This document shows, in pieces, positions 35,573-49,840 of a stretch of DNA of 64,000 nucleotides. This DNA comes from Candidatus Eisenbacteria bacterium (GTDB taxonomy: Bacteria; Eisenbacteria; RBG-16-71-46; CAIMUX01; JAHJDP01): NCBI GenBank assembly GCA_018831195.1, contig JAHJDP010000099.1, positions 1 to 64,000 of the forward strand, read 5' to 3'. Position 1 is the first letter of the stretch; every line of letters begins with the position of its first letter. A program made the translations under genes and the position numbers. Below the pieces are notes generated by a model. It made no database searches. It saw only the letters and a program-made list of their open reading frames with translations, and had not been told where the DNA came from.

Positions 35573-37050
35573 GACGTTGGTATCTCAGCGTTAGTGGCGG
35601 CGGGTTCGCCAGCAAATTGCTGGGTGTGATAAGAGAGGCGCTCCTGGCCCGATATTTCGGCACCGGTCCGGTTGCCGACGCCTTCCGCGCTTCTCTTGGC
35701 GCCACGCTTTCACCGGCGCATCTCCTGACGAGCCGTATTGTACAATCCTGTTTCATCCCTCTGTACGCCACCTATAGAAAAGAGAGACCGGAGCGGGCGC
35801 GATCGCTGTTCCTCCTCATGCTGGTATTTTATCCATCGCTGGGTCTTCTTCTCGGCTTTCTTTTGTTTCTCTTTGCCGGCCCCGTTATTCATCTCCTTCT
35901 GCCGGGATTCGACCTGGATAGATTTGCTCTGGCGGTCGCCATGCTGCGAATCATGTCGATCGGAATTCCCTTCTATACGTACACTTCTCTTTTGGATTCG
36001 CTGGGTGTGGCCCAGGAAGATTTTACCATTCCGAGTTTGAGACCGGCTGTGCAGAATGTTGGGATGCTCGCGACAATTATCTTGGCGGCTTCCATCTCAC
36101 GGCCGGAAGTGATCGCCTATGGATTTACCGGCAGCTACATCCTCATGTCCGTTGCGGCGACATGGTTATTGTGCCGGCGAAATGAAATTCCCCACAGAAT
36201 TCCTCTGGATTCAACCTTGGTTAAGGAGACCGCCTATGCGCTCTGGGTCCTGGCCCGGCCGTTGATCTTTGTCTCACTTTTGGCCGAGACCTATGTCCTA
36301 GGTGAGAGATATTTGGCCTCTCTGGTTGGAGGGGGCTCAATTGCATCGATTGAGTATGCCCGCTTTCTTACGGAGACGCTCCATACCTTGCTCATCGTTC
36401 CGCTGGGGCTGATCGGTTTGGGTTATTTTAGCACCCTCGCCATTCAGGATCTCCAGGAAAAGACGGATCGCAATCTAGCGCGTATCTATATTGTCCTCAT
36501 CCCTGTCTCCGCATTTTTCTTCATGAATGGGGAAATCATGCTGCGACTTCTCTATATGCGGGGCCAATTTGATGAAAACTCTCTCAGTATGACATTCGGA
36601 GCCCTGCGGGGTCTGAGCTTGGGATTGTGGGCTTATAGCGCACGGTACTTCCTTCATCGCATTTTCAATGCGCGTTTGATGAATGGTATTGTTCTCCGGG
36701 GTGAGGCTCTCCTTTTTCTCTCCAGTCTTCTTGTGATGTTTCTTTCATACAAAAAACTGGGCGTCTTTGGACTTGGATTGGGAACATCCGTAGGTTCCGT
36801 TCTCTCATTGTTTTACTTTTCCCGAAAGGTTGAATATGAGATGCCGCTGGCAAGACGGTGTTTCTCGGTCTTCCTGCCCGCCGCCGTCATCTATATTATT
36901 ATTTCGTGGTTTTTCGGACGTTTTGTGGACGCCGGTCTCCGCCCGGTCCTCCAGGTTCTTTTCTCGATGGTATTCTGGGGGAGTGTCATGGGAGCTAATG
37001 CGGATGCCAGGGGGCTTGTGCTGAGTTGGTTCAGGATGAAGCGGCGGTGA
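35569..37050 (+). CDS. MOP-superfamily lipid flippase (MurJ/Wzx-like)
   Basis: A 493-residue inner-membrane protein with about 12-14 hydrophobic segments. The N-terminal KLLGVIREALLARYFGTGPVADAFRAS matches the MurJ/MVF signature, and RFLTETLHTLLIVPLGLIGLGYFSTLA and LYMRGQFDENSLSMTFGALRGLSLGLWAYSARYFLHRIFNA match later MurJ motifs. Because it is sandwiched between two glycosyltransferase genes it more likely flips a surface-polysaccharide lipid intermediate than lipid II. The start is GTG 35569, overlapping the previous stop by four bases, with GGGGAGG upstream. Confidence 0.86.
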   Translation: MRRWYLSVSGGGFASKLLGVIREALLARYFGTGPVADAFRASLGATLSPAHLLTSRIVQSCFIPLYATYRKERPERARSLFLLMLVFYPSLGLLLGFLLFLFAGPVIHLLLPGFDLDRFALAVAMLRIMSIGIPFYTYTSLLDSLGVAQEDFTIPSLRPAVQNVGMLATIILAASISRPEVIAYGFTGSYILMSVAATWLLCRRNEIPHRIPLDSTLVKETAYALWVLARPLIFVSLLAETYVLGERYLASLVGGGSIASIEYARFLTETLHTLLIVPLGLIGLGYFSTLAIQDLQEKTDRNLARIYIVLIPVSAFFFMNGEIMLRLLYMRGQFDENSLSMTFGALRGLSLGLWAYSARYFLHRIFNARLMNGIVLRGEALLFLSSLLVMFLSYKKLGVFGLGLGTSVGSVLSLFYFSRKVEYEMPLARRCFSVFLPAAVIYIIISWFFGRFVDAGLRPVLQVLFSMVFWGSVMGANADARGLVLSWFRMKRR

Positions 37051-38135
37051 GAAGGCCGATAAAAATAGACTTCCTTGCCTGGCGGCCCATCAGCAATGCC
37101 AGCGCACGCTGCCGTGGGGCCGCCTACAAGCAGGCTTTCGGTGAGATGGGATATGAGCTGAATTTCCGCCCACCGGCGCCCGATGGGATTTACCGCTTTC
37201 TTAACAGCAGGCGGGGGTTGATGCGCATCCCCGCAAAAATCCTCTATTTTGTTATCGTCCTGATTATGCGAAAGATACAGATTCTGCGGGCTTCACGCGC
37301 CGACGCTGTCGTGGTTCAGAGAGAACTTTTCACCTTTGGACCTCCCTTTTTGGAGCGGATCCTCGCCTATCTCCAGCCGAATCTGATTTACGATATTGAT
37401 GATGCGGTGGATATGACGCCTCCACATATACGCAGTTCCGGCCGTCGATTTCACGACCAGCGGAAGCCGGAAAAGATTCTTTCCCTGTGCCGGCACCTTG
37501 TCGCGAGCACACACTTTCTTGCAGAGCGATTTCAAAGAGAGCGCATCCCAACGACGATCATTCCCACACCGGTTGACACGGAATTGTTTCAGCCGTCCGG
37601 ACCGTCTGCACGGGGGAATCCAGCCCTGGGTTGGATTGGCACCGGCGGAAACTTGTACTATTTAAAACAGATCTCAGATGCTTTGGTCAGCGTACAAAGG
37701 GAGTACGGATGTGAGGTTGTTGTTGTCTCCGAGTGGGACTTCCAGGCGCCGGGCTTGGAAGTTAGGAACCTCCGCTGGAGAATGGAGGACGAAGTTGAAC
37801 TGATGAGCCGCTTCGATATCGGCCTCATGCCTCTCGTGGATAATCCTTATACCCGGGCGAAGGCCGGCTACAAAATTCTGCAATATTGGGCTACAGGCAA
37901 GGCGGTAATTGCGTCTCCCGTTGGATTCAACCGAATATTGGTACATCACGACATTAATGGCCTTCTTGCCAATACGATGGATGAATGGACCTTTCAATTG
38001 GGCCGATTGATCCGCGATCGGGATTTGCGGGCCCGATTGTCGGCGGCGGGGCGCCAGCGTGTTGAAGATGAATATTCAATCGAGAGATGTGCCGTGAAGT
38101 GGGATGAAGTGTTCAAGAGGCTATTGAAAAGCTGA
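37047..38135 (+). CDS. Glycosyltransferase family 4 protein
   Basis: A 362-residue GT-B glycosyltransferase: N-terminal FLAWRPISNASARCRGAAYKQAF and PNLIYDIDDAVD; C-terminal PALGWIGTGGNLYYLKQI, VELMSRFDIGLMPLVDNPYTRAKAGYKILQYWATGKAVIASPVG, which holds the donor-binding E/K-containing motif, and the end DEYSIERCAVKWDEVF. The GTG at 37047 overlaps the flippase stop as GTGA and has AGGA upstream; a GTG at 37026 is less likely. Third gene of the polysaccharide unit; it ends seven bases from the convergent nikR gene. Confidence 0.86.
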   Translation: MRRPIKIDFLAWRPISNASARCRGAAYKQAFGEMGYELNFRPPAPDGIYRFLNSRRGLMRIPAKILYFVIVLIMRKIQILRASRADAVVVQRELFTFGPPFLERILAYLQPNLIYDIDDAVDMTPPHIRSSGRRFHDQRKPEKILSLCRHLVASTHFLAERFQRERIPTTIIPTPVDTELFQPSGPSARGNPALGWIGTGGNLYYLKQISDALVSVQREYGCEVVVVSEWDFQAPGLEVRNLRWRMEDEVELMSRFDIGLMPLVDNPYTRAKAGYKILQYWATGKAVIASPVGFNRILVHHDINGLLANTMDEWTFQLGRLIRDRDLRARLSAAGRQRVEDEYSIERCAVKWDEVFKRLLKS

Positions 38136-38142
38136 AATCCGG

Positions 38143-38559
38143 CTACGCATCACATCCAGCGGTTCGTGTCAGTTTTGAAAATTTGACGCCCTTGAGACCG
38201 CCGAGTTCCAGGCTCAATTTCTCGATTTCAGACGGCCGTCCGCGGATGATAATGACTTCGAGGCAATTGTTGTGATTCAGATGAACGTGCGTATTGCAAA
38301 GGATATGTACCAATCGGGAATGCTGCAGATCAATAATGTTCTGAACCAGCCCTTGCTGGTGATGGTCGTAGCTGATCGTAAGGACGCCGACGACTTCTTC
38401 GCTCTCGGAAGCCCATTTATCCAGGATGAGTTGTTCCCTAATCAAATCGCGGACAAACTCAGACCGGGATGCATATCCTTTGGAAATGATTCGGTCATCG
38501 AGTTCTCCCAGAAGATTGACCGGCAGAGAAACCGTGAAACGGATAATATCAGTCGACAC
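38143..38559 (-). CDS. nikR: Nickel-responsive regulator NikR
   Basis: A 138-residue ribbon-helix-helix/ACT regulator. The N-terminal [18 protein letters not shown]...[11 protein letters not shown] is the DNA-binding strand-helix-helix, and the C-terminal domain keeps the four square-planar nickel ligands with the E. coli spacing: His80, His91, His93 and Cys99 ([12 protein letters not shown]). With Ni(II) bound, NikR represses nickel uptake. It is the last gene of the nickel operon, starting at GTG 38559 behind AGGGGG, nine bases after nikO, so it probably controls its own operon through the palindrome at 42685-42711. Confidence 0.93.
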
Positions 38560-38568
38560 TAACGCCCC

Positions 38569-39345
38569 CTAATCCCAATCATGTTTATGAAAGTGTCTGT
38601 GTGAGACATCGCCATGGCGATGCTTATGCGTGTGGATCAAATTCGCATCCATCAGCTTCGTTTGATCCTCCAGCAGTTCCGAGATCTCCCCATCGAAGAT
38701 CAGCTCATGATCCTCTGACAGCACCATGGTGCGATCACCCAGCTCCCCGGCGAGACTCAAGTTATGGGTCGTTACAACCGTCGTCACATCCAAATCCTGG
38801 AGAAAGTCCACCAGCCACCCTGTGCTCCTCGGATCAAGATTTGATGTCGGCTCGTCCAAAAGGAGAACTTTGGGTTCCAATGATAGGAGCGCCGCCAAAC
38901 AAACCTTCTGTTTTTCGCCGCTGCTTATCTGGAAAGGGGGGTGTTTCAGATATTTCTCAAGGCCCAGAAGGCGCGCCCAATATTGCACCTTTTCATCAAT
39001 ATGAGGAAGTGCCAACTGTCTGAGACCGAAGGCGATCTCGTCATAAACGGTCGGATTGAACAACATTGTATCGGGATTCTGAAAAAGAAGAACGTTTTCT
39101 CTGCGGAATTTTTGATGAAGTGTCTTGTCATTCAGTGAAGATCTGGTGATTGGATGGAGATCGTACTGGTAGGCCCCCTCGGCGGGGAAGAGCAGGCCGT
39201 TTAATATCTTGAGAAGGGTTGTCTTACCGCTGCCATTGGTTCCCAGCATGACGACCTTTTGCCCTGATGGGATCTCAAAGGAAAGGTCGCTGAGGATGCA
39301 GGCGCCGTTCCCATAGGCGAAACTGAGATGTTCGACCCTAATCAT
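38569..39345 (-). CDS. nikO: ECF nickel transporter ATPase (NikO/CbiO) with His-rich tail
   Basis: A 258-residue ABC ATPase of the energy-coupling-factor class: Walker A GTNGSGKT (35-42), Q-loop LLFQNPDTMLF, a signature ISSGEKQKV in place of the usual LSGGQ, Walker B VLLLDEPTSNLD and the switch His in VTTHN. The C-terminus (from about 236) is an eight-His stretch (HTHKHRHGDVSHRHFHKHD), probably a nickel-binding or sensing tail. The gene overlaps nikQ by eight bases. Context (nikK, nikL, nikM, nikQ, nikR) fixes nickel over cobalt. Confidence 0.9.
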   Translation of the reverse strand: MIRVEHLSFAYGNGACILSDLSFEIPSGQKVVMLGTNGSGKTTLLKILNGLLFPAEGAYQYDLHPITRSSLNDKTLHQKFRRENVLLFQNPDTMLFNPTVYDEIAFGLRQLALPHIDEKVQYWARLLGLEKYLKHPPFQISSGEKQKVCLAALLSLEPKVLLLDEPTSNLDPRSTGWLVDFLQDLDVTTVVTTHNLSLAGELGDRTMVLSEDHELIFDGEISELLEDQTKLMDANLIHTHKHRHGDVSHRHFHKHDWD

Positions 39346-39889
39346 TGATGAATCCTCTCGATCGCATTGCTTGGGAAACTTCCGAAGCCTGGGTCACGGC
39401 CTTTTGCAAAAAGAATCCCCCCAATGTCGCCGCATGTCTATAGAGATCACGAATAGCGAGCCGCCGGATGCTCCGGCTTTTTAAAGCCAGATGAAAATCC
39501 ACGGCCAGCTTTTTAAAGGTGTTGATCTGACTGTAGGAAAGGGTCAGGAGAAATAGAAGAGTCTGAGAAAATGCGAATGCTCTAAAGGGGCTGAAACGCT
39601 CATGCAGTAGAAATGTCATCGAAGTAATCAAAAAAACACGCAGGTTAATGAGGCAAATGTAATAAAGGGAAATTTTGTTGTTCAATAACGAGATACCAAT
39701 ATATGAAAGTGTGACAACGCTGTTAAATATAATTATGGAGAGCGCGGCTTTTCTTGCGATCATTATCGATCGGCGGAATGCCAGCATATAAACACAGGCA
39801 AGCATTGCCGCAAGATAGAATAAATCATGTATGGCTGTCGCCAGAACGACAAGACAAAAATACGCGGCCAATGTTATTCTATCTTTCAT
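39338..39889 (-). CDS. nikQ: ECF nickel transporter transmembrane subunit (NikQ/CbiQ)
   Basis: A 183-residue T component, shorter than most CbiQ proteins (about 220-270). About four to five hydrophobic segments are visible, and the coupling-helix motifs that contact the ATPases are present: LALKSRSIRRL and the C-terminal QAMRSRGF. It overlaps nikM by ATGA and nikO by eight bases, so translation is coupled along the core transporter genes. Confidence 0.88.
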   Translation of the reverse strand: MKDRITLAAYFCLVVLATAIHDLFYLAAMLACVYMLAFRRSIMIARKAALSIIIFNSVVTLSYIGISLLNNKISLYYICLINLRVFLITSMTFLLHERFSPFRAFAFSQTLLFLLTLSYSQINTFKKLAVDFHLALKSRSIRRLAIRDLYRHAATLGGFFLQKAVTQASEVSQAMRSRGFIND

Positions 39890-40533
39890 GGAGCCGCCGG
39901 CGGTTTTAGTTTTTCATAAAAACGGCATATCAATACCGTGAGAAATCCCTCTCCAATACCTATCAGACAATGCGGTAAAATGATCGCCGGAAGAGTGATC
40001 GAGAGGCCGAAGGGGAAGAATAGCGGAGTTCCATCCGATGAGTGTGCGATAACGGGTTGAAGCCCCAATATAACGGCTGTGAAGACGGCGGGAACGACGA
40101 CGGATGTCCAACCAGCGGCGAAGAGGGCGATGGTATTGTTAAATCGAGAGAGGGCTTTATAAAGAGACCAAGCGGTCATTCCCCCCAACAAACCCATGGC
40201 GATCGCATTTACCGGAAGGGTTGTTATGCCCCCGCTTCCAAAGAGCAAAGCCTGTAGAAGAAGAACCAGTGATGTGGCGAGGAAGGCGGTCCAAAATCCG
40301 AAAAGAACCGCCAAAACTGCGATTCCCGATGCATGTGCGGAGGTGCCGCCGGGGAGAGGAACGGCGATCATCATTAAAACAAAAGCAAGGGCGGTCATCA
40401 CTGAAAGATGAGGGAGGATATCACTGCGGAGTCGGGATCTTAAATATCGCGCGCCGGTGGACCAGAGGCCGGCGCAAATGGCGTAGGCCGGCAAATATAT
40501 TTTAGGCGTAATAAAGCCATCGGGGATATGCAT
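39886..40533 (-). CDS. nikM: ECF nickel transporter substrate-binding membrane subunit (NikM/CbiM)
   Basis: A 215-residue S component with the invariant N-terminus MHIPDGF, whose backbone amine and His2 coordinate the metal in this family, the second metal-binding His in GGTSAHASGI, the core GSGGITTLPVNAIAMGLLGG, and GIGEGFLT near the end. Six membrane helices are apparent. The start ATG 40533 has GAGGAAAG upstream. Cobalt-specific CbiM proteins share these residues, but the flanking nikK, nikL and nikR favour nickel. Confidence 0.92.
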   Translation of the reverse strand: MHIPDGFITPKIYLPAYAICAGLWSTGARYLRSRLRSDILPHLSVMTALAFVLMMIAVPLPGGTSAHASGIAVLAVLFGFWTAFLATSLVLLLQALLFGSGGITTLPVNAIAMGLLGGMTAWSLYKALSRFNNTIALFAAGWTSVVVPAVFTAVILGLQPVIAHSSDGTPLFFPFGLSITLPAIILPHCLIGIGEGFLTVLICRFYEKLKPPAAP

Positions 40534-40544
40534 CGCTGCTTTCC

Positions 40545-41528
40545 TCAGAGGAGTGTTGAGAAGGTCATGATAAGTCTGTATTTCTCCCCGCCCTCGGCTC
40601 CTTGCTGCTCTGATTCTTCATTGAGGTCCACCCAGGAGGGTATTTTAATTCCAAACCCCAGACTCGTCGATTTGACATAGAGGCGGAATCCTGGGACCCA
40701 ATAGACCACCTTCCCGCCGGTCGCCTCTTCACCGATCCCGTCAAGTTCATCGCGGCTCAATTCCAGGAAATTCAATTCTAAATTGGCGTCAAGTCTCAGT
40801 TTGCCGGGCGAATAAGTGAGGATGCGGTTTGATAGTGCGGCGTTAAAGCGCAGCTCATTGCCAAAGCGCATTGAGGTGCCATCGCAATACTCATATTCAT
40901 TGAAGCCGATAAATGAAGACTCGAGGACCACAGTCAGTGGACTGAATATTTGTTTTGTTATCGTTCCTCCGATCGTATAAGAGGGCTTTCCAAAGCCCAG
41001 GGACATCCCCGGGTCGATTTCCCCTGCTGTGTTCTTCAGATTCGGATTTCCGGTCGGCAATGAAAGACCGCCGTAAACGCCGAAATGCCAGTCCTCGAGG
41101 TCGTCAAGGCTTTCATTCCTTGGGACGAGACGGGGACCGCCGTCCCATTTAAACCCGCAAACACCCATAATCGATATATCGGCAAAGCCGGATGTGTTGT
41201 AGGAGTTGTCTTCTACAACCTTGCTGTAGAAAGGGAAGAAGGCATACAGAGAGAGATACGATGTCACGCCGTGTCCGATGCCGTACATCCAAAAGGCGCT
41301 GACCTTTCCTTCATCATCCCGTTCGGCCGTATTTGTCTTGAATTGAGCCCAATCCAGTTTTACATAACCCAAAAAACTGGATTCCGGCAGGGTCGCGGAG
41401 CTGGAAGTTTCTATGGGCGCTCCGGGCCCTTCCAATCCCGCAACGCCCAGTGAGGCGACACCGTGATGGGCATGTCCGCAGAAAGGGAAGAGGATCAAAA
41501 AAATGATGCACGCCGCCGTTAGTCTCAT
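40545..41528 (-). CDS. Outer-membrane beta-barrel protein embedded in the nickel operon
   Basis: A 327-residue exported protein: signal peptide (to about residue 21, FPFCGHA), then a His-containing start (HHGVASLGV) and many amphipathic strands (FLGYVKLDWAQF, FGVYGGLSLPTGNP, SYTIGGTITKQI, FRLYVKSTSLGFGIK, YRLIMTFSTLL), like the 'transporter/porin' barrels seen next to metal systems. ATG 41528 forms an ATGA overlap with nikL, and the gene lies 11 bases before nikM, so it is firmly part of the operon. The frame extends to 41609 but without a better start. A role as nickel pore or receptor in the outer membrane is inference from position. Confidence 0.82.
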   Translation of the reverse strand: MRLTAACIIFLILFPFCGHAHHGVASLGVAGLEGPGAPIETSSSATLPESSFLGYVKLDWAQFKTNTAERDDEGKVSAFWMYGIGHGVTSYLSLYAFFPFYSKVVEDNSYNTSGFADISIMGVCGFKWDGGPRLVPRNESLDDLEDWHFGVYGGLSLPTGNPNLKNTAGEIDPGMSLGFGKPSYTIGGTITKQIFSPLTVVLESSFIGFNEYEYCDGTSMRFGNELRFNAALSNRILTYSPGKLRLDANLELNFLELSRDELDGIGEEATGGKVVYWVPGFRLYVKSTSLGFGIKIPSWVDLNEESEQQGAEGGEKYRLIMTFSTLL

Positions 41529-41959
41529 TTTGATTTTTTCCTGTAAAACAAGCTGATAACTCCGAAAATACCGAAGAGGATCCCCAAACCCGACAAGATG
41601 CGGATCCAACGATTTGGAATGGATGAACCGGTTTCAGAGACCAGCCCACCTTCGTCGATCGGCAGTGTTATATCCAAGCCGTGACCATCTTCTGAGAAGG
41701 CGCGAATTCGCCAGTCCCCGGCCCGGTCCGCCATAAAAATGATTCTTCCTTTTTTGTCGGTCCGGCCGACCTGAAAGGGCGTACTCTCACCTGGTGGGTA
41801 TATCTCAAAACTCTCATATGAAAAAGGGGAGTCATCACCGAATGTTAAATGTAGAATATTTGCTTTTCCATAGTTTATGGAGTGGTTTAACTCATGCGCC
41901 TGCGATGAACTCGAAAATGTCAGTATCAAGAGAAATAATGGCAGGTGTGCCGATTTCAT
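41525..41959 (-). CDS. nikL: Nickel transport accessory protein NikL
   Basis: A 144-residue protein with a signal peptide (to about residue 21, SSSSQA, mature start HELNHSI), a periplasmic beta-domain (about 30-90) with FEIYPPGESTPFQVGRTDKKGRIIFMADRAGDWRIRA, and one C-terminal membrane helix (RILSGLGILFGIFGVISLFY) with a basic end. This layout matches NikL, which works with NikK and the NikMQO transporter. The mature N-terminal His may bind nickel. ATGA overlaps join it to nikK upstream and to the barrel gene downstream. Confidence 0.82.
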   Translation of the reverse strand: MKSAHLPLFLLILTFSSSSQAHELNHSINYGKANILHLTFGDDSPFSYESFEIYPPGESTPFQVGRTDKKGRIIFMADRAGDWRIRAFSEDGHGLDITLPIDEGGLVSETGSSIPNRWIRILSGLGILFGIFGVISLFYRKKSK

Positions 41960-42669
41960 GGTTTCTCTCCCATGCGGAAGCAGAGTGCGGCCGTGTGGAT
42001 TTCAGTGTCGGCTTCTATGGAGTCCAGCGGCCAGCTAATTGTGGTTTGAATCAGCTGAAGGTCCGGATGACGGAGGCGGATATTGATCTGTCCATCTGCT
42101 CCTGTCAGTCCCCGGGGTTTACCGTCATAAGTCACCACGGCGCCATTCACGGGGACCTTATTCTTCGTGACGAGCAGCCGAAGTTTATCGCCCACCCCGA
42201 GAAGCAGGGGATTGCTGAGAGGCGCCAGTTCCAGGTGTCCGGTCAGCGGTCTGATAAAATCCTCATTCCAGCTATCTATATATTTAACGCTTTCATAAGA
42301 GAGCCAGCTTTCCAACGGATGTTCCACTTGTGTTTTGGGGATGTTCTTGGTGCCATAGGGTGTTTTTGTCCAATACCCGGAAGAAAAAAGCACATGGATC
42401 AGCCGGCACCCGGTGCCAATGCGCATTGGAAAAACCACTTCCGGTTCAATCGGCGATAACGGCCCCTGTTCATCGGAACAGAGGACTTCGAGTATGGAAT
42501 GCGGGTCGTACTCGATGGTCGCTTCGCCGGGGTGGGACGATGACCGGTGTCCCCTGTAGAGCGAGAAACCCTCGGGGGTCTTTTCTATCCAGAAATCATG
42601 GGCGACAGCCTGGGATCCCAGAAGAGCGAAAATGAGGATGAGGAGCGCCCTTTGTTTCCATAATCCCAT
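41956..42669 (-). CDS. nikK: Periplasmic nickel-binding accessory protein NikK (DUF4198)
   Basis: A 237-residue exported protein. The signal peptide ends SQAVA and the mature chain starts HDFWIEKT, the mark of DUF4198/NikK proteins, whose exposed N-terminal His can ligate nickel. Beta-strand-rich middle and a C-terminal DUF4198-like block (NKVPVNGAVVTYDGKPRGLTGADGQI). It is first in the operon, with ATG 42669 after GGGGG and the NikR-type palindrome 16 bases upstream of the start codon. Confidence 0.88.
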   Translation of the reverse strand: MGLWKQRALLILIFALLGSQAVAHDFWIEKTPEGFSLYRGHRSSSHPGEATIEYDPHSILEVLCSDEQGPLSPIEPEVVFPMRIGTGCRLIHVLFSSGYWTKTPYGTKNIPKTQVEHPLESWLSYESVKYIDSWNEDFIRPLTGHLELAPLSNPLLLGVGDKLRLLVTKNKVPVNGAVVTYDGKPRGLTGADGQINIRLRHPDLQLIQTTISWPLDSIEADTEIHTAALCFRMGEKP

Positions 42670-42684
42670 ACTCGACCCCCTTCA

Positions 42685-42711
42685 GTATTACGAAAATATA
42701 ATTCGTAATAC
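42685..42711. promoter_or_regulatory. Probable NikR operator of the nik operon
   Basis: A perfect inverted repeat with 10-base arms GTATTACGAA and TTCGTAATAC around AATATAA. The outer six bases give GTATTA-N15-TAATAC, the form known for NikR sites outside the enterics (E. coli has GTATGA-N16-TCATAC). It lies 16 bases upstream of the nikK start, where it would cover the transcription start or -10 region. With nikR in the same operon, nickel-dependent autoregulation follows. Confidence 0.85.
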
Positions 42712-42901
42712 CGAATCTAGCAGAAATTCCACGATCCGATCAAGGGACATCGGTTGCGTGGAATTCAGCGCAAGGGGAGCTCTATCTATATGAGAAATTT
42801 AAAGATAGCAAAAGTAACCAGGAATTTTTCGTTAAATTTGTTGGGATAGAAGAATTGGACCATCTGGCTCTAACTTCAAGAGTGGTAATATGTTATGCCA
42901 C

Positions 42902-42930
42902 TTGACGAATGCCCGTTGACAGTGTAGAAT
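42902..42930 (+). promoter_or_regulatory. Sigma-70-like promoter for the protease gene
   Basis: TTGACG (42902-42907), exactly 17 bases, then TAGAAT (42925-42930). The leader to ATG 43088 would be about 150 bases. The remaining 42712-43087 gap between the divergent nik operon and this gene shows no gene. Confidence 0.6.
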
Positions 42931-43087
42931 TAACGCAGGTCATTCATGAGATTTCTGAAGGCGCCGGCTCGGGTCCTCTGGTATGATCATGAGTTCCTAT
43001 TGAGTTCTTAGGTCTCCATCCTGCCACGCCTTTGGGATGGAAGTCGTCCTGTGTACGTCGCAATACAAGGACCGATTGGAGGGATTT

Positions 43088-44788
43088 ATGAGGATGGATC
43101 ACCTGCCTCGGTTGGCAGCCGGACTCCTTGTCTCCGCAAGCGTCCTGGTTCTTCTGGGATTGGGAGCCGACAGCGCTCTCGCGCGGATGGGAGATGCTCC
43201 CTTAAGTTTATTGTACAATGTTAGTAATGAAGCATCAATTGAAACGATCGTGATGCCGCCCGTCGACGCCGATCGGCTGCTTCAGGAAGACATAGACCGG
43301 GCGGCGGCCGGCATTGATGGACCGCTGCGTTTTGCGCAACCCCATGATGTCTATTTAAACCTGATTGAAGCCGGGACACTTGATGAGCTGGAGAACGGCG
43401 GCCGTATTTGGCGTCTTCGTTTCATCTCCGGTGGTGCCTATAGTCTCAACTTCGGGGTCACATCCTATCTCATTCCTCCGGGCGGAACGCTTCATCTGTA
43501 CCCAGCCGGTCAGGTATCCGCGGATTTGATATGGGAAGGCCCCTTTGATCCAGATGAAAAGGTCGAAGGGGAATTCTGGTCGCCCGTCATTCCGGGTGAT
43601 GATGTTATTGTCGAGCTGTATGTTCCCGCGGATGCCGCCTTTGAGCCGGAGGTCATCATTTCCCAGGTGAATCATGATTATCGCGGATTCGGAAAAGCCC
43701 GGGATGACGCTCAGCAGGGTTGGTGCAATATAGATGTGATTTGCCCCGAAGGCGATCCATGGCGGGATGAAATAAGATCCGAAGGCGTTTACACGATCAA
43801 TGGATCTTGGATGTGCTCGGGCCAGCTGGTGAACAGCTTGACTTCAAGTCCGACTCCATTCTTTCTGACGGCGTATCATTGCGGGATCTCGACGAGCAAT
43901 GATCACACGGTGAGGGTTTATTGGAATTATGAGTCTCCCACCTGCGGGCAGCTCGGCGGTGGCAGTCTATCGGATAGCCAGCAAGGTTGCACGGAGGTGG
44001 CCGACTATTCCGCCTCGGATTTCTCTTTGGTGGAAATGACCAGCACGCCTGCGGAAGCTTCGAATGTCTATTATGCCGGTTGGGATGCCCGTACGAATTG
44101 GAATCCGAGTCAATGCACGGCTATTCATCATCCCGGCACCGACGAGAAATCGATCAGTTTCAACTTTGACGCGCTCATGATCACATCGTATATCGGGACA
44201 TCGGTGCCCGGTGACGGGACGCATTGGCGCGTGGATGATTGGGAGGTGGCGACGACAGAGGGCGGTTCTTCCGGTTCCGCTATTTGGGATGAGAACCACC
44301 ATATTGTCGGACAGCTTCACGGCGGGTATGCCTCCTGTTCATCGATTACGAGTGATTGGTACGGACGCCTCGCCATCTCCTGGAGCGGCGGGGGATCCTC
44401 CGCCACCAATCTGCGGTCCTGGCTCGATCCGGAAAACACGGGAACTCTGGTATTGAACGGCCGGGATTCAAACGCATCCGCTATCGAAAATGTTGAAGTT
44501 CTAATCCATAAGGGCGCGTTGCGTCCCATTTCCCCGAACCCTGCAGCCACCCGAATGGGGATTGGATTTGATCTGCATCAAGCCGGCGCCATCCAATTGG
44601 ATGTTGTGGATGTCACCGGCAGGGTCGTCACCACATTAGCAGCCAAGAATTATCAAGCCGGCAGCTGGCAATTGGGGTGGGACGGCACGTCGTCCAGTGG
44701 CGAGCGGCTTTCGTCGGGGGTTTACTATGTCCGCATGTTGATAGATGGTCAAGCGGCGGATACAAAGAAGGCCGTATTGGTTCGCTAG
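43088..44788 (+). CDS. Secreted lysyl-endopeptidase-like serine protease with C-terminal sorting domain
   Basis: A 566-residue exported S1-type protease. Signal peptide to about 32 (GADSALA), a pro-region (about 33-205) with the SLNFGVTSYLIPPGGTLHLY element, and the catalytic domain with CSGQLVNS, His264 (TAYHCG), Asp311 (SDFSLVEM) and Ser395 (GGSSGSAIW). The layout is that of Achromobacter lysyl endopeptidase relatives. Several Cys suggest disulfides. The C-terminal sorting module (SPNPAATR, VVDVTGRVVTTL, SSGVYYVRML) marks surface delivery. ATG 43088 follows TTGGAGGG. Cleavage specificity for Lys is not certain from sequence alone. Confidence 0.88.
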   Translation: MRMDHLPRLAAGLLVSASVLVLLGLGADSALARMGDAPLSLLYNVSNEASIETIVMPPVDADRLLQEDIDRAAAGIDGPLRFAQPHDVYLNLIEAGTLDELENGGRIWRLRFISGGAYSLNFGVTSYLIPPGGTLHLYPAGQVSADLIWEGPFDPDEKVEGEFWSPVIPGDDVIVELYVPADAAFEPEVIISQVNHDYRGFGKARDDAQQGWCNIDVICPEGDPWRDEIRSEGVYTINGSWMCSGQLVNSLTSSPTPFFLTAYHCGISTSNDHTVRVYWNYESPTCGQLGGGSLSDSQQGCTEVADYSASDFSLVEMTSTPAEASNVYYAGWDARTNWNPSQCTAIHHPGTDEKSISFNFDALMITSYIGTSVPGDGTHWRVDDWEVATTEGGSSGSAIWDENHHIVGQLHGGYASCSSITSDWYGRLAISWSGGGSSATNLRSWLDPENTGTLVLNGRDSNASAIENVEVLIHKGALRPISPNPAATRMGIGFDLHQAGAIQLDVVDVTGRVVTTLAAKNYQAGSWQLGWDGTSSSGERLSSGVYYVRMLIDGQAADTKKAVLVR

Positions 44789-44834
44789 TCAACTCTTCCG
44801 GGTAAACATGGATGTTTTTAACAAGGGGTGAAAA

Positions 44835-47354
44835 ATGAATAGGAAGTGGGTTCAGATCATCATTGCCGTTGTTGGATGTCTCGCTTTTACACTAGGGACG
44901 ATATCGGCGGACTCCCGCATGACGACAAGGGAGTATTTTGAAAAGTGGGATAACCATTTCAAAGACCTTACCGAGATGAGGGCGGGAACAGCCAACACCT
45001 CGGGTACCGGTTTCAAGCCGTACCAGAGGTTCAAATGGTTTTTTGAGAGAAGGCTCTCACCCGATGGGAACATGATTCCCGGAGTTCGTTGGAAGGCCTA
45101 TGATCAGTTGCAGGAGATGGTCAACGAAAAAGGACGGGACGGTGAAACCTGGTTCACACTCGGACCCATTAATGTCGCGGGCCGTTGCCTCGCGATAGAG
45201 GTTCATCCCACAAACTCCGATATTGTCTATGCCGGATTCGCCAGCGGCGGAATCTGGATGACAACGGATAGCGGCAGCAATTGGGCGCCTCTTGGTGATG
45301 ATCTGCCAACGATGGCCGTCAGCGCGATTGAGATCGACTCGAATAATCCTGATCGTATCTGGATCGGAACCGGGGAGGGCTGGGGCAATACCGACGCGGT
45401 GCATGGCGCCGGGCTGTTGCGATCCCTCGATGGCGGTCTGACCTGGGGAACGACGGGATTCAATTATTCAGTGAGTTCCGGTCTGGATGTTTTCGAGCTG
45501 GAGTATAACCCAGCCACGGGCACGCTCCTCCTCGCCGCGGAGAACGGACTCTGGCGATCCACAGACGGCGGCGATTCCTTTGATGAGGTTATGCCCTCCG
45601 GAAAGTGGATGGATGTGCAGTTGAAGAAGGGTTCCACTGACACTATATTCGCCTGCTCCTACTACTGGGCGGAAATGGGATTCTGGCGTTCCACCGATGA
45701 TGGATTAACCTGGACCCGGTGTACGACGGGCGTTCCGACCGCTGGGTTGAGTAATATGCGTCTTGCCCTCTGCGACGCCTATCCCGATATCATCTATTGG
45801 GCGATTGCGAATGGCAGCGGTGGCATGCTGGGGATTTGGCGATCGGTCGATGGCGGAGACAGTTTCGCGCAAGAATATAGCGGCTCGCCGAATCATTATG
45901 GTACTCAGGGCTGGTACAACCTCACAATCGCTGTTGATCCGACCAACCCGAACAGAGTGATGTCGGGCGGTGTTGAATTTTACAGATCGACAAACGGCGG
46001 AACCTCCTTCAGCCAAATCGCATCGAATGTCCATGTCGATCATCATGCAACGGCATGGGATCCGTCTAATCCGGCAATATTCTGGGTTGGAAGCGATGGC
46101 GGTGTTTACCGAAGTGCAAACTCCGGGGTGTCATACTCGAATAAGAATCTCGGCCTCGTCACGATGCAGTTCTATGCGATGAATCATTCCAAAACCCTGC
46201 CGACCCGGGCGCTTGGTGGAACCCAGGATAATGGGACTTATATATTCAATGACAATCCAAACTGGGGTTCGATTCTCGGCGGCGATGGGTTCTTCTGCGA
46301 GGTCGATTATGCCGATCCGAATTATGTCTACGCTGAGTTGTATTTCGGCGATCACCGAAGGAGCAGCACGGGCGGAACGGGAATGGTTTCGATCAACAGC
46401 GGGATTACCGAAAACGGTCCCTGGTCGACACCGACGCATATGGATTTCGCAAATCCCGCCGTCCTCTACACCGCTCATAACACGACGGTATTCCGAACCA
46501 CTAACAGGGGGAACTCCTGGTCGCCGATCACATCCGTACCAATCTCGGGATACGGCACCTCGATCCACCAGTCCCTGAATAATCCCGATTATTTTGTTGT
46601 CACCTCGAACCAAAAAATCTGGGTATCGACCGATCATGGGAATACTTGGAATGACCGAACCAGCGGCGTCATTACAGCGGGTACTCTGAGTGACAGTCAT
46701 TACCATCCGGATGATCCCAACACGATACTTATAACCCTCGCGACCTATTCGAGCACGCAGCCTCAGGTTCAAAAGACAACAGACCAGGGTTTATCATGGT
46801 TCCCGATTGAATATGGTCTTCCGGAAGAGCCGGTCAACACCATCGAAATCGATCCGTCGCATCCGGATTGGTATTTCATCGGCACCGATCTGGGCGTCTA
46901 CATCTCCTACAACGCCGGAGCGACGTGGACCCCCTTCAACGTTGGATTGCCCCATGTTGTTTGCTCCGATCTGCGGCTTCACAACGATGAACGGTTTCTG
47001 CGGGTTGCCACCCACGGCCGTGGGATGTGGGAGGTTGATATCAGCAATCTGACGGCCCCGGCCGCGGATGTTCAACCTGTCGAGCCGCAGATTCAGCCGC
47101 TCACCCTACGTGTTCTCGGAACCCCGGCCACCAACAGCGTCGTTCTGCACTATGGTTTGCGGCGAGCGGGCGCTGTGAAGTTGGCTCTCTATGATGTCAC
47201 CGGGCGGATGGTTAAGGGCGTGGTCGATGATTTCGCGCAGGCGAAAATCGACAACGCCACTGTCGACGTCTCAGATCTTCCGTCAGGTGTCTACTTCGCC
47301 CGACTGGAAGCTAATGGGGCATCGATTTCCCGGAAGGTTGTCGTGGAAAAATAA
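44835..47354 (+). CDS. Secreted BNR/sortilin-type propeller protein with C-terminal sorting domain
   Basis: An 839-residue exported protein (signal to about residue 25). From about 100 to 750 it carries many BNR/Asp-box repeats (S-x-D-x-G-x-T-W: TTDSGSNW, SLDGGLTW, STDGGDSF, STDDGLTW, SVDGGDSF, STDHGNTW, TTDQGLSW, SYNAGATW), making one or two large beta-propellers of the VPS10/xyloglucanase kind. The C-terminus is the sorting module (YDVTGRMVKGV, SGVYFARL, RKVVVEK). It follows the protease gene by 46 bases with AAGGGGTG upstream, so they may be co-transcribed. Glycan or protein binding is likely; no catalytic residue is identifiable. Confidence 0.85.
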   Translation: MNRKWVQIIIAVVGCLAFTLGTISADSRMTTREYFEKWDNHFKDLTEMRAGTANTSGTGFKPYQRFKWFFERRLSPDGNMIPGVRWKAYDQLQEMVNEKGRDGETWFTLGPINVAGRCLAIEVHPTNSDIVYAGFASGGIWMTTDSGSNWAPLGDDLPTMAVSAIEIDSNNPDRIWIGTGEGWGNTDAVHGAGLLRSLDGGLTWGTTGFNYSVSSGLDVFELEYNPATGTLLLAAENGLWRSTDGGDSFDEVMPSGKWMDVQLKKGSTDTIFACSYYWAEMGFWRSTDDGLTWTRCTTGVPTAGLSNMRLALCDAYPDIIYWAIANGSGGMLGIWRSVDGGDSFAQEYSGSPNHYGTQGWYNLTIAVDPTNPNRVMSGGVEFYRSTNGGTSFSQIASNVHVDHHATAWDPSNPAIFWVGSDGGVYRSANSGVSYSNKNLGLVTMQFYAMNHSKTLPTRALGGTQDNGTYIFNDNPNWGSILGGDGFFCEVDYADPNYVYAELYFGDHRRSSTGGTGMVSINSGITENGPWSTPTHMDFANPAVLYTAHNTTVFRTTNRGNSWSPITSVPISGYGTSIHQSLNNPDYFVVTSNQKIWVSTDHGNTWNDRTSGVITAGTLSDSHYHPDDPNTILITLATYSSTQPQVQKTTDQGLSWFPIEYGLPEEPVNTIEIDPSHPDWYFIGTDLGVYISYNAGATWTPFNVGLPHVVCSDLRLHNDERFLRVATHGRGMWEVDISNLTAPAADVQPVEPQIQPLTLRVLGTPATNSVVLHYGLRRAGAVKLALYDVTGRMVKGVVDDFAQAKIDNATVDVSDLPSGVYFARLEANGASISRKVVVEK

Positions 47355-47390
47355 TCTCTCATAGTTCATGAGACGGATGTCGCCGGCACC

Positions 47391-47421
47391 GCCCCCACAA
47401 ACAAGTGGGGGCGATGCTTTT
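47391..47421 (+). terminator. Rho-independent terminator after the propeller gene
   Basis: 8-bp stem GCCCCCAC / GTGGGGGC with a 6-base loop, followed by GATGCTTTTTCCC, 36 bases after the stop. Confidence 0.8.
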
Positions 47422-47433
47422 TCCCTCTGAAAT

Positions 47434-47459
47434 AATACTTGAATTTCATGTATAGTATT
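47434..47459. promoter_or_regulatory. Imperfect palindrome upstream of the Rrf2 gene (possible Fe-S regulator site)
   Basis: AATACT-N14-AGTATT. The left half ATACTTGA matches the ATASYYGA half of the E. coli IscR type 1 site; the right half is degenerate and the overall length is one base short. It lies about 130 bases before the regulator start, where autoregulation of an IscR-like operon would act. Suggestive only. Confidence 0.4.
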
Positions 47460-47590
47460 TGTACTCTAGGAGTGGAGTCGATACAGGAGTGGACGATTTG
47501 CCGCGCGGCGAACCAATCTCCATTCCCAAAGACTGAAAAGCGGGGACTGAAAACGGGGACTGAAAATGTGAAACTGTGTGGGGTGAAGTG

Positions 47591-48085
47591 TTGAAGATTA
47601 CTTCATTGGAAGAATATGGACTCCGCTGTATGGTTCAACTGGCCCGTCATTCAGACAGGGAGCCTCTTACCATTGCGGAGATAGCGCAGGAAGAAGGATT
47701 ATCGCTTCCCTATGTTGGGAAGCTGATGAATCTTCTCAGGCAGGAGGGTCTTGTCATGAGTGTCCGCGGCAGGGCAGGGGGTTATATTTTACCACGCCCC
47801 GCCGATCAGATCACTCTGGATACCGTCATTACGGCCTTGGGCGGAGACCTGTTTGATAAGGATCATTGCGGCCGTCATCCGGCTGGACATGATGTGTGCG
47901 TTCACTCCGGGGACTGCTCGATTCGGTCCGTTTGGTCCACAATGCATCGCATTATCAATGACACGCTGAAGAAAACCAGTCTATCCGATTTAGTGGGAAC
48001 GGAGAATCAGGTCTCGCAGACTCTAGAAATGCCGGCATCAGCAGCCGATGGGGAAAGAGAGGCCGGTGGTATCGAGCTGCCGTGA
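47591..48085 (+). CDS. Rrf2-family Fe-S-responsive transcriptional regulator (IscR-like)
   Basis: A 164-residue winged-helix regulator: KITSLEEYGLRCMVQLA at the start, LTIAEIAQEEGLSLPYVGKLMNLLRQEGLV with the recognition helix, and RGRAGGYIL in the wing. Three Cys (CGRHPAGHDVCVHSGDC) match the Fe-S ligand cluster of IscR/RsrR-type members. TTG 47591 gives the canonical Rrf2 N-terminus and has GGGGTGA at the right distance; GTG 47576 and 47588 are alternatives. It heads a unit with sufS and sufU, so it probably senses Fe-S status and controls these genes. Confidence 0.87.
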   Translation: MKITSLEEYGLRCMVQLARHSDREPLTIAEIAQEEGLSLPYVGKLMNLLRQEGLVMSVRGRAGGYILPRPADQITLDTVITALGGDLFDKDHCGRHPAGHDVCVHSGDCSIRSVWSTMHRIINDTLKKTSLSDLVGTENQVSQTLEMPASAADGEREAGGIELP

Positions 48086-48101
48086 TCGGCGGCGGGGCCT
48101 G

Positions 48102-49370
48102 ATGGTTCAAAAGGCGGAGGTTAAAGATTCCCATATGGGCGGATCACTCGATATCGCGCAAATCCGCAAAGAATTTCCTATCTTTGACCGCTCCTTTCAT
48201 GGACACCGGCTTGTTTATCTAGACAACTCCGCCACATCCCAAAAACCGATGTGTGTGCTGGATGCCCTGACGGGATTTTACAAGACCTCTAATGCTAATG
48301 TTCACAGGGGTATCTCGACCCTTTCCCGGGAAGCAACGGAAGCCTATGAGGAGACGCGGCGGAGGGTCGCCGGCTTTTTAGGGAATGTCCCCTCGAAGAG
48401 CATCGTCTTCACAAGGGGAACGACCGAATCGATCAATCTCATCGCTTGGGCTTGGGCCCGGCGCCGTCTGAAAGCCGGAGATGAGATTCTTCTCACCGAG
48501 ATGGAACACCACAGCAACCTCATCCCTTGGATGCTCATCGCCCGCGAATCAAACCTTGTGCTGCGGCACATCCCCGTCACTGATGATGGACGACTTCAGC
48601 TGGAGGCGCTTGATGATCTGCTGACGGAGAAAACGAAAATCGTTTCGGTGACCCGCCAATCAAATGTCACAGGTACAATGAATCCGGTGGCCGAGATCGC
48701 CCGGCGGGCAAAGGCTTTCGGTGCGAAGGTCCTTATCGATGGTGCGCAGTCCGTTCCACATGAATCCACCCGGATCGAGGATTTTCAGTGCGATGCCCTA
48801 GCCTTCTCCGCGCATAAGATGCTGGGACCCACCGGCGTCGGCGTATTGTACGCCGATCCGGCCTTTCTCGAAGAGATGGAGCCGTATCAAGGCGGGGGGG
48901 AGATGATACAGGAGGTCACTCGCGACCATGCCACATGGCGCGCGATCCCCTGGAAATTCGAAGCGGGGACCCCCAATATAGCCGGTGTGGTGGCGTTCAA
49001 GACGGCGTTGGATTTTCTTGAGGCGGCCGGATTGGAGAAGATTGCGGCGCACGAGAACCGGTTGAGGCGGTATGCCCTCGATCGCCTGCTCGCAATCGAG
49101 GGGCTCCGGATCCTGGGCGGTGATACCCATGAAGATCGGGGCGGGGTCCTTTCATTTGTTCTCGAGAACCTCCATCCGCACGATCTTGCAACCGTGTTGA
49201 ATGAGAGGGGGATTGTTATTCGCGCCGGCCACCATTGCGCTCAACCCCTTATGCGGCGATTTAATGTCGCCGCCGCGGCGCGGATCTCCTTTTACATTTA
49301 CAATGATACAGATGATGTCGACGCCCTCGCCGAAGGGATTGATGAAGCTGTAAGGTACTTTGCCCCATGA
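48102..49370 (+). CDS. sufS: SufS-type cysteine desulfurase
   Basis: A 422-residue PLP enzyme that takes sulfur from cysteine for Fe-S assembly. Seen: VYLDNSATSQKP, HRGISTLSREAT, MEHHSNLIPW, SVTRQSNVTGT, the PLP Lys in FSAHKMLGPTGVGVLY and the active Cys in RAGHHCAQPLM, with the SufS-type spacing. Start ATG 48102 is 16 bases after the regulator stop; an ATG at 48135 is possible but its GGAGG lies 14 bases away. Overlaps sufU by ATGA, the usual pairing of SufS with its sulfur-accepting partner. Confidence 0.93.
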   Translation: MVQKAEVKDSHMGGSLDIAQIRKEFPIFDRSFHGHRLVYLDNSATSQKPMCVLDALTGFYKTSNANVHRGISTLSREATEAYEETRRRVAGFLGNVPSKSIVFTRGTTESINLIAWAWARRRLKAGDEILLTEMEHHSNLIPWMLIARESNLVLRHIPVTDDGRLQLEALDDLLTEKTKIVSVTRQSNVTGTMNPVAEIARRAKAFGAKVLIDGAQSVPHESTRIEDFQCDALAFSAHKMLGPTGVGVLYADPAFLEEMEPYQGGGEMIQEVTRDHATWRAIPWKFEAGTPNIAGVVAFKTALDFLEAAGLEKIAAHENRLRRYALDRLLAIEGLRILGGDTHEDRGGVLSFVLENLHPHDLATVLNERGIVIRAGHHCAQPLMRRFNVAAAARISFYIYNDTDDVDALAEGIDEAVRYFAP

Positions 49371-49840
49371 AATCAACGGAGCTGGACGCCCTCTACCGTA
49401 AAGTATTGCTGGATCATTACCGAGATCCCCGTTGCCGGGATCCGATATCCTCTCCCACTCACCGGCAAAAAGCCAGCAATCCCCTCTGTGGCGATGAAAC
49501 GAGCCTCGCCGTGGAGCTGGTGGATGGCCGGTTCCTGAAGATCCAGGTGCGAAGCGGCGGATGCTCGATTTGTGTCGCTTCGGGCAGCATGATGGGAGAA
49601 ATTGTACAGGGGCGCACGGAAAAGGAAACGAGGCGCATCGCCGATGCTTTCCAGCTTTTGATGAAGGGTTCTCCTATTCCTGATAATGTGGATCTGGGGG
49701 ATCTCCGGGTGTTGGAGGGTGTTTTGCGTTTTCCAGAAAGAGTCAAATGTGCAACACTTCCTTGGGTTGCGCTGGAGGGAATTCTGCTGGAGCGGGAAAG
49801 GGAGTTGGAAGGGGATCAGAAAAAGGATCGGGAAAAATAA
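49367..49840 (+). CDS. sufU: SufU zinc-dependent sulfurtransferase / Fe-S assembly partner
   Basis: A 157-residue cytosolic protein. SufU/IscU-type ligands are present: Cys in NPLCGDE, Cys in RSGGCSICVASGSMM, and the C-terminal VKCATLPW. The insertion between the second and third Cys and the KCATLPW ending favour SufU over IscU. It accepts persulfide from SufS. Overlaps sufS by ATGA; the desaturase gene starts one base past the stop. sufB, sufC and sufD are not in the window. Confidence 0.92.
   Translation: MKSTELDALYRKVLLDHYRDPRCRDPISSPTHRQKASNPLCGDETSLAVELVDGRFLKIQVRSGGCSICVASGSMMGEIVQGRTEKETRRIADAFQLLMKGSPIPDNVDLGDLRVLEGVLRFPERVKCATLPWVALEGILLERERELEGDQKKDREK

Follow-up and report, generated by a model that had tools for sequence, protein, structure and literature searches.

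A predicted nickel-uptake operon in the genome of a Candidatus Eisenbacteria bacterium is very probably controlled by the product of its own last gene: a perfect palindrome upstream of nikK appears to be the operator of the nickel regulator NikR encoded there, and nickel-dependent repression of all genes from nikK to nikR is predicted. Operators and operons of this type are already known, and what is new, and well supported, is their occurrence in the Eisenbacteria lineage, which extends Helicobacter pylori-type nickel control to an uncultured, little-studied phylum.

A unique palindrome upstream of nikK

Within the 64,000-nucleotide stretch of DNA that was analysed (the window), the palindrome lies as follows.

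42685–42711, no strand: predicted NikR operator; half-sites GTATTAC and GTAATAC separated by N13, centres 20 bp apart, arms GTATTACGAA and TTCGTAATAC

The site reads GTATTACGAAAATATAATTCGTAATAC, 27 bp of the form GTATTAC-N13-GTAATAC, with outer arms of 10 bp each in perfect complementarity around a non-palindromic centre of N7. This confirms the perfect GTATTA-N15-TAATAC palindrome that the preliminary description had reported before the first gene of the operon, and places it 15 bp from the nikK ATG (42669).

Palindromy alone carries little weight, because the window holds 13 generic inverted repeats of 10 bp (gaps 0–30); the weight therefore falls on the exact sequence of the site and its place. 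Perfect 10-bp inverted repeats around N7 occur once in the window, at 42685–42711. Across the 5.24 Mb genome, GTATTAC-N13-GTAATAC was found in one exact copy and two matches with two mismatches, against a chance expectation (arithmetic) of ~0.02 for an exact 14-base match; with weaker matches included the total was 58, fewer than the 144 of a reversed-pattern control, so that there is no excess. The broader pattern GTRNYAC-N13-GTRNYAC, with half-sites in any orientation, likewise had 42685–42711 as its sole exact match. The preliminary description had said that many such palindromes at unrelated places would speak against its reading; no further exact copy was found. Its expectation of further sites at nickel enzyme or transporter genes fared less well: neither scan of the 5.24 Mb found a second exact operator, and among the near matches listed from the genome scans none fell at the hydrogenase loci (see below). 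The predicted NikR regulon is therefore the nikK operon alone.

The nikK operon

Seven genes on the minus strand follow the palindrome in the order nikK-nikL-barrel-nikM-nikQ-nikO-nikR.

41956–42669, minus strand: nikK, periplasmic component (DUF4198-like); PF10670 31.4 bits, cut-off 34; 45–49% identity to nikK of loci L056 and L046
41525–41959, minus strand: nikL; NikL family NF058648 52 bits, E 8e-14, cut-off 100; synteny
40545–41528, minus strand: outer-membrane beta-barrel protein; PF13557; 12 strands predicted; mature N-terminus HHGVASLG
39886–40533, minus strand: nikM, CbiM/NikM S component, beginning MHIPDG; PF01891 191 bits
39338–39889, minus strand: nikQ, transmembrane T component; PF02361 17.9 bits, cut-off 25; synteny; 36–46% identity to nikQ of relatives
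38569–39345, minus strand: nikO, ATPase; ABC_tran 102.7 bits; ECF ATPase models
38143–38559, minus strand: nikR, H. pylori-type nickel regulator; PF08753 95.4 bits, RHH_1 30.8 bits; GTG start

Gaps between these genes, in operon order, are −4, −4, 11, −4, −8 and 9 bp, and because they run only from −8 to +11 bp a single transcript is very likely. The operon had been described earlier with the same genes in the same order, which stands; the start of the barrel gene is revised, most likely to the ATG at 41528, which overlaps the stop codon of nikL. NikM, NikO and NikR are firmly identified by Pfam and NCBIfam, while NikK, NikL and NikQ fall below single-model cut-offs and owe their names to synteny and to 36–49% pairwise identity with relatives. 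The only NikM/CbiM of the genome is the one in this operon. A nikM, nikQ and nikO core accompanied by nikK and nikL, without nikN, constitutes the NikKLMQO arrangement, from which we infer a nickel-specific ECF transporter.

NikR is of the H. pylori type

The claim that the last gene is a nikR with all four nickel ligands is borne out at 38559–38143 by H80, H91, H93 and C99, which align to H. pylori H88, H99, H101 and C107 and are invariant in 11 NikRs. The protein has the two-domain NikR architecture, with RHH_1 and NikR_C both over cut-off, and it exceeds the curated models PRK00630 (NF001884; 199 bits, cut-off 119), PRK04460 (145, cut-off 105), PRK01002 (130, cut-off 111) and PRK02967 (99, cut-off 83). 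TIGR02793, the E. coli-centred model, gives 84.7 bits, short of its cut-off of 175.5. The closest PDB entry is 2ca9 (H. pylori; E 7e-47), followed by 2bj1 (E 2e-31) and 1q5v (E 3e-16), which we take to be the Pyrococcus and E. coli NikRs, respectively. The DNA-contacting strand reads IIRFTVSL, compared with IIRFSVSL in H. pylori NikR. This is the only NikR gene in the genome. In a tree of 39 NikRs its product falls among 16 that group together with full support (100/98). They come from Gemmatimonadota, Krumholzibacteriota, Latescibacterota, Aquificota, Pseudomonadota and members of the order to which the window belongs, and almost all are encoded at the end of a nikK-type operon. The simplest reading would be that the cassette has moved between phyla.

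Operator type covaries with NikR type

In H. pylori, footprints yielded the consensus TRTTA-N15-TAWTA with a distance of 20 nt between centres, read by its authors as one tetramer bound to a pair of hemi-operators that are separated by two helical turns (PMC5385501). The window operator, written as TATTA-N15-TAATA, matches this consensus in full and consists of two TRWYA-type half-sites within the range of 20–21 nt between centres. It shares with the H. pylori system (PMC5385501; 2ca9) the PRK00630 subfamily, the four ligands, the half-site core and the 20-nt centre spacing. Whereas H. pylori has a multi-gene regulon with AT-rich, poorly conserved operators, the window has one perfect site, with G/C at the half-site ends, and one operon. 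The window operator also comes close to the delta-proteobacterial consensus GTGTTAC-N13/14-GTAACAC, for which a GTaTTAC variant is listed: those sites precede nikMQO or nikKMLQO (PMC545781) and agree in geometry, in their place before a nikKL-MQO operon and in including reversed half-sites, which were already noted in 2004 in Desulfotalea (PMC545781). The differences are A rather than G at the third half-site base, the barrel gene in the operon and the lineage. The E. coli operator, GTATGA-N16-TCATAC, is similar in logic and overall length and differs by one base per half-site; as a type for the window site it was rejected because it mismatches at two bases and goes with a different type of NikR.

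We compared nikK operons reached via the barrel gene, together with the window's relatives, a set covering six or more phyla, and searched about 360 bp upstream for operators with at most one mismatch. One same-order relative, contig L048, is identical to L058 (WJJG01000348, Candidatus Eisenbacteria). GTRNYAC-N13/14 sites, a pattern partly generalised from these same loci whose core was published in 2004, were present at 11 of the 12 loci with an H. pylori-type NikR and at 0 of the 19 with an E. coli-type NikR. GTATGA-N15/16-TCATAC sites showed the reverse (0 of 12 and 16 of 19), the E. coli-type operator preceding nikK homologues of Rhodocyclales and of some Gammaproteobacteria that have an E. 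coli-type NikR. Fisher p-values for the association are 1e-7 for the GTRNYAC type and 3e-6 for the GTATGA type, and they overstate the case because the loci in both sets share ancestry and are not independent observations. Spacing is also specific: N13 was found in 9 of the 12 H. pylori-type loci (at most one mismatch), and other spacings from 8 to 21 gave 0 or 1. The L046 operator has two mismatches in its distal half-site. A switch of operator with NikR type before homologous genes would be hard to explain unless the sites belong to NikR. The proposal that the palindrome is a NikR operator is thereby supported, with NikR, operon and operator conserved together in relatives, and its site type is refined to H. 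pylori/delta-proteobacterial. Because operator and NikR type change together before the same genes, these loci also offer a clean test set for the evolution of ribbon-helix-helix specificity.

Half-site orientation varies while spacing does not. Half-sites are inverted in the window, L056, L059 and L060; everted in L049 (5465–5491, GTAATAC-N13-GTATTAC); and direct, with N13 kept, in L083 and L085 (4779–4805). Near-palindromic half-sites, each read by a symmetric ribbon-helix-helix dimer, would account for this, in agreement with the published TRWYA motif.

Among the Campylobacterales, nikKL-barrel-MQO operons occur without an adjacent nikR (L063, L066, L069, L070, L073, L091, L101, L102, L111). 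At loci of this group with upstream sequence, no GTRNYAC-pattern operator was found before nikK.

A putative promoter abutting the operator

42738–42743, minus strand: putative −35 hexamer TTGATC; hexamer match, same arrangement in relatives
42714–42719, minus strand: putative −10 hexamer TAGATT; ends 2 bp before the operator

These hexamers (TTGATC-18 bp-TAGATT) are weak, matching at 8 of 12 positions over the −35 and −10, and lay below the threshold of the promoter scanner, which did not call them. The arrangement recurs clearly in relatives, where a TTGAC-like −35 and a −10 ending 1–7 bp before the operator accompany about eight operators of loci with an H. pylori-type NikR. With the −10 ending where it does, the start of transcription would fall within the operator, and repression by exclusion of RNA polymerase is therefore predicted. 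In two relatives a Shine-Dalgarno-like GGAGG lies inside the operator (L046, 13877–13903; L051, 3249–3275), such that NikR binding would overlap the translation start region.

Alternative readings

The operator could be real and the operon import cobalt, or both metals. In favour are the membership of NikM in the CbiM family and the five proteobacteria in which NikK1ML1QO neighbours B12 genes or cobalamin riboswitches (PMC2667541). However, no cobalamin riboswitch or other Rfam RNA was found in 37000–48000, NikK and NikL stand in place of CbiN, nikR lies within the operon and the genome encodes [NiFe]-hydrogenases; we regard cobalt import as improbable. Binding by another metal regulator of the Fur/Zur type, with nikR incidental, is more improbable still. 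While the Geobacter Zur consensus, TAAATCGTAATnATTACGATTTA, has CGTAAT/ATTACG in common with the site (PMC545781), its elements are ordered and spaced differently; moreover, the operators of relatives are specific for N13, and site type tracks NikR type across phyla.

The least credible reading, and one we scarcely entertain, takes the palindrome for a chance inverted repeat or a leader RNA structure. The abundance of generic inverted repeats in the window would favour it, but the genome has no second exact copy of the site, and relatives carry it at the equivalent place. The hairpin version was rejected because relatives carry everted (L049) or direct (L083, L085) half-sites, which cannot form the same hairpin.

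Proposed regulation and nickel demand

Under the favoured reading of the palindrome as a NikR operator, sufficient cytoplasmic Ni(II) would place a nickel-loaded NikR tetramer on the site, its two ribbon-helix-helix dimers each bound to a TRWYA half-site at a distance of two helical turns. Bound NikR would occupy the region where transcription from the nikK promoter starts and so turn off both the import of nickel and the synthesis of NikR itself; under nickel scarcity it would be released and the nikK-L-barrel-M-Q-O-R transcript made. Nickel-dependent binding and repression, the position of the promoter in this genome and the specificity of the transporter for nickel are all predictions from sequence.

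The imported nickel would most likely go to the two [NiFe]-hydrogenases of this genome. Their large subunits lie on contigs C18 and C84, apart from the contig of the nikK operon, and have intact RxCxxC and DPCxxC motifs (RICGVC...DPCLSC and RICGIC...DPCISC), which implies a demand for nickel in the cell. Urease, as another nickel user, was not found in the genome search.

A conserved, predicted outer-membrane barrel

The third gene of the operon encodes a PF13557 protein (COG4313/Phenol_MetA_deg; 31 bits, cut-off 22) with a predicted 12-stranded barrel. AlphaFold with 55 homologues gave 12 long strands (pLDDT 83, pTM 0.81), and the best Foldseek matches are FapF (5o68) and a COG4313 outer-membrane channel (4rl8), with TM of 0.59–0.65 by query and 0.74–0.78 by target. 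The predicted fold is like these two; identity is only 12–14%, and the window barrel differs in being tied to nickel genes. The barrel profile had no match among PDB sequences.

nikK directly precedes the barrel in 50 of 50 loci with >1 kb upstream, and nikM directly follows it in 46 of the 52 with downstream sequence (in L069, nikM is about 1.9 kb further). Four loci (L072, L075, L076, L077) have no nikLMQO and instead carry HupE/UreJ permease genes after nikK-barrel (PF04955 at 168 bits in L076); three of the four have a divergent E. coli-type nikR beside nikK with a GTATGA operator between. The HupE loci thus suggest that nikK and the barrel may act as an envelope module that does not depend on the ECF transporter.

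With nikK immediately before it at every locus whose sequence extends far enough, the barrel is a candidate outer-membrane route for nickel. We tentatively propose, with rather less than even confidence, that with NikK it forms a dedicated, TonB-independent outer-membrane nickel channel, a portable module feeding NikLMQO or HupE under the local NikR. A 2009 survey reported orphan NikK proteins and left their gene neighbours unexplained (PMC2667541); our literature search, most subscription journals lying outside its coverage, found no description of a nikK-linked barrel. If the channel role that we infer holds, the conserved barrel could explain the passage of nickel across the outer membrane where no TonB receptor is involved, and it is the part of this work that could become news.

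The exported proteins of the operon begin with histidine after likely signal-peptide cleavage at alanine (HDFW in NikK, HELNH in NikL, HHGVA in the barrel), and the N-terminal HH of the barrel is >90% conserved. Together with the MHIPDG start of NikM, these histidines may possibly form a relay of nickel sites.

Neighbouring genes

Beyond the operator, 43037–44788 (trypsin-like) and 44835–47354 (sortilin/BNR repeats) encode secreted proteins whose C-termini are of the Por_Secre_tail/FlgD_ig kind, as is usual for cargo of type IX secretion. Further on, 47576–49840 holds an iron-sulfur assembly cluster of consecutive genes for an Rrf2-type regulator, a cysteine desulfurase and a NifU-like scaffold; Pfam identifies Rrf2 and NifU_N, and the desulfurase was recognised by eye.
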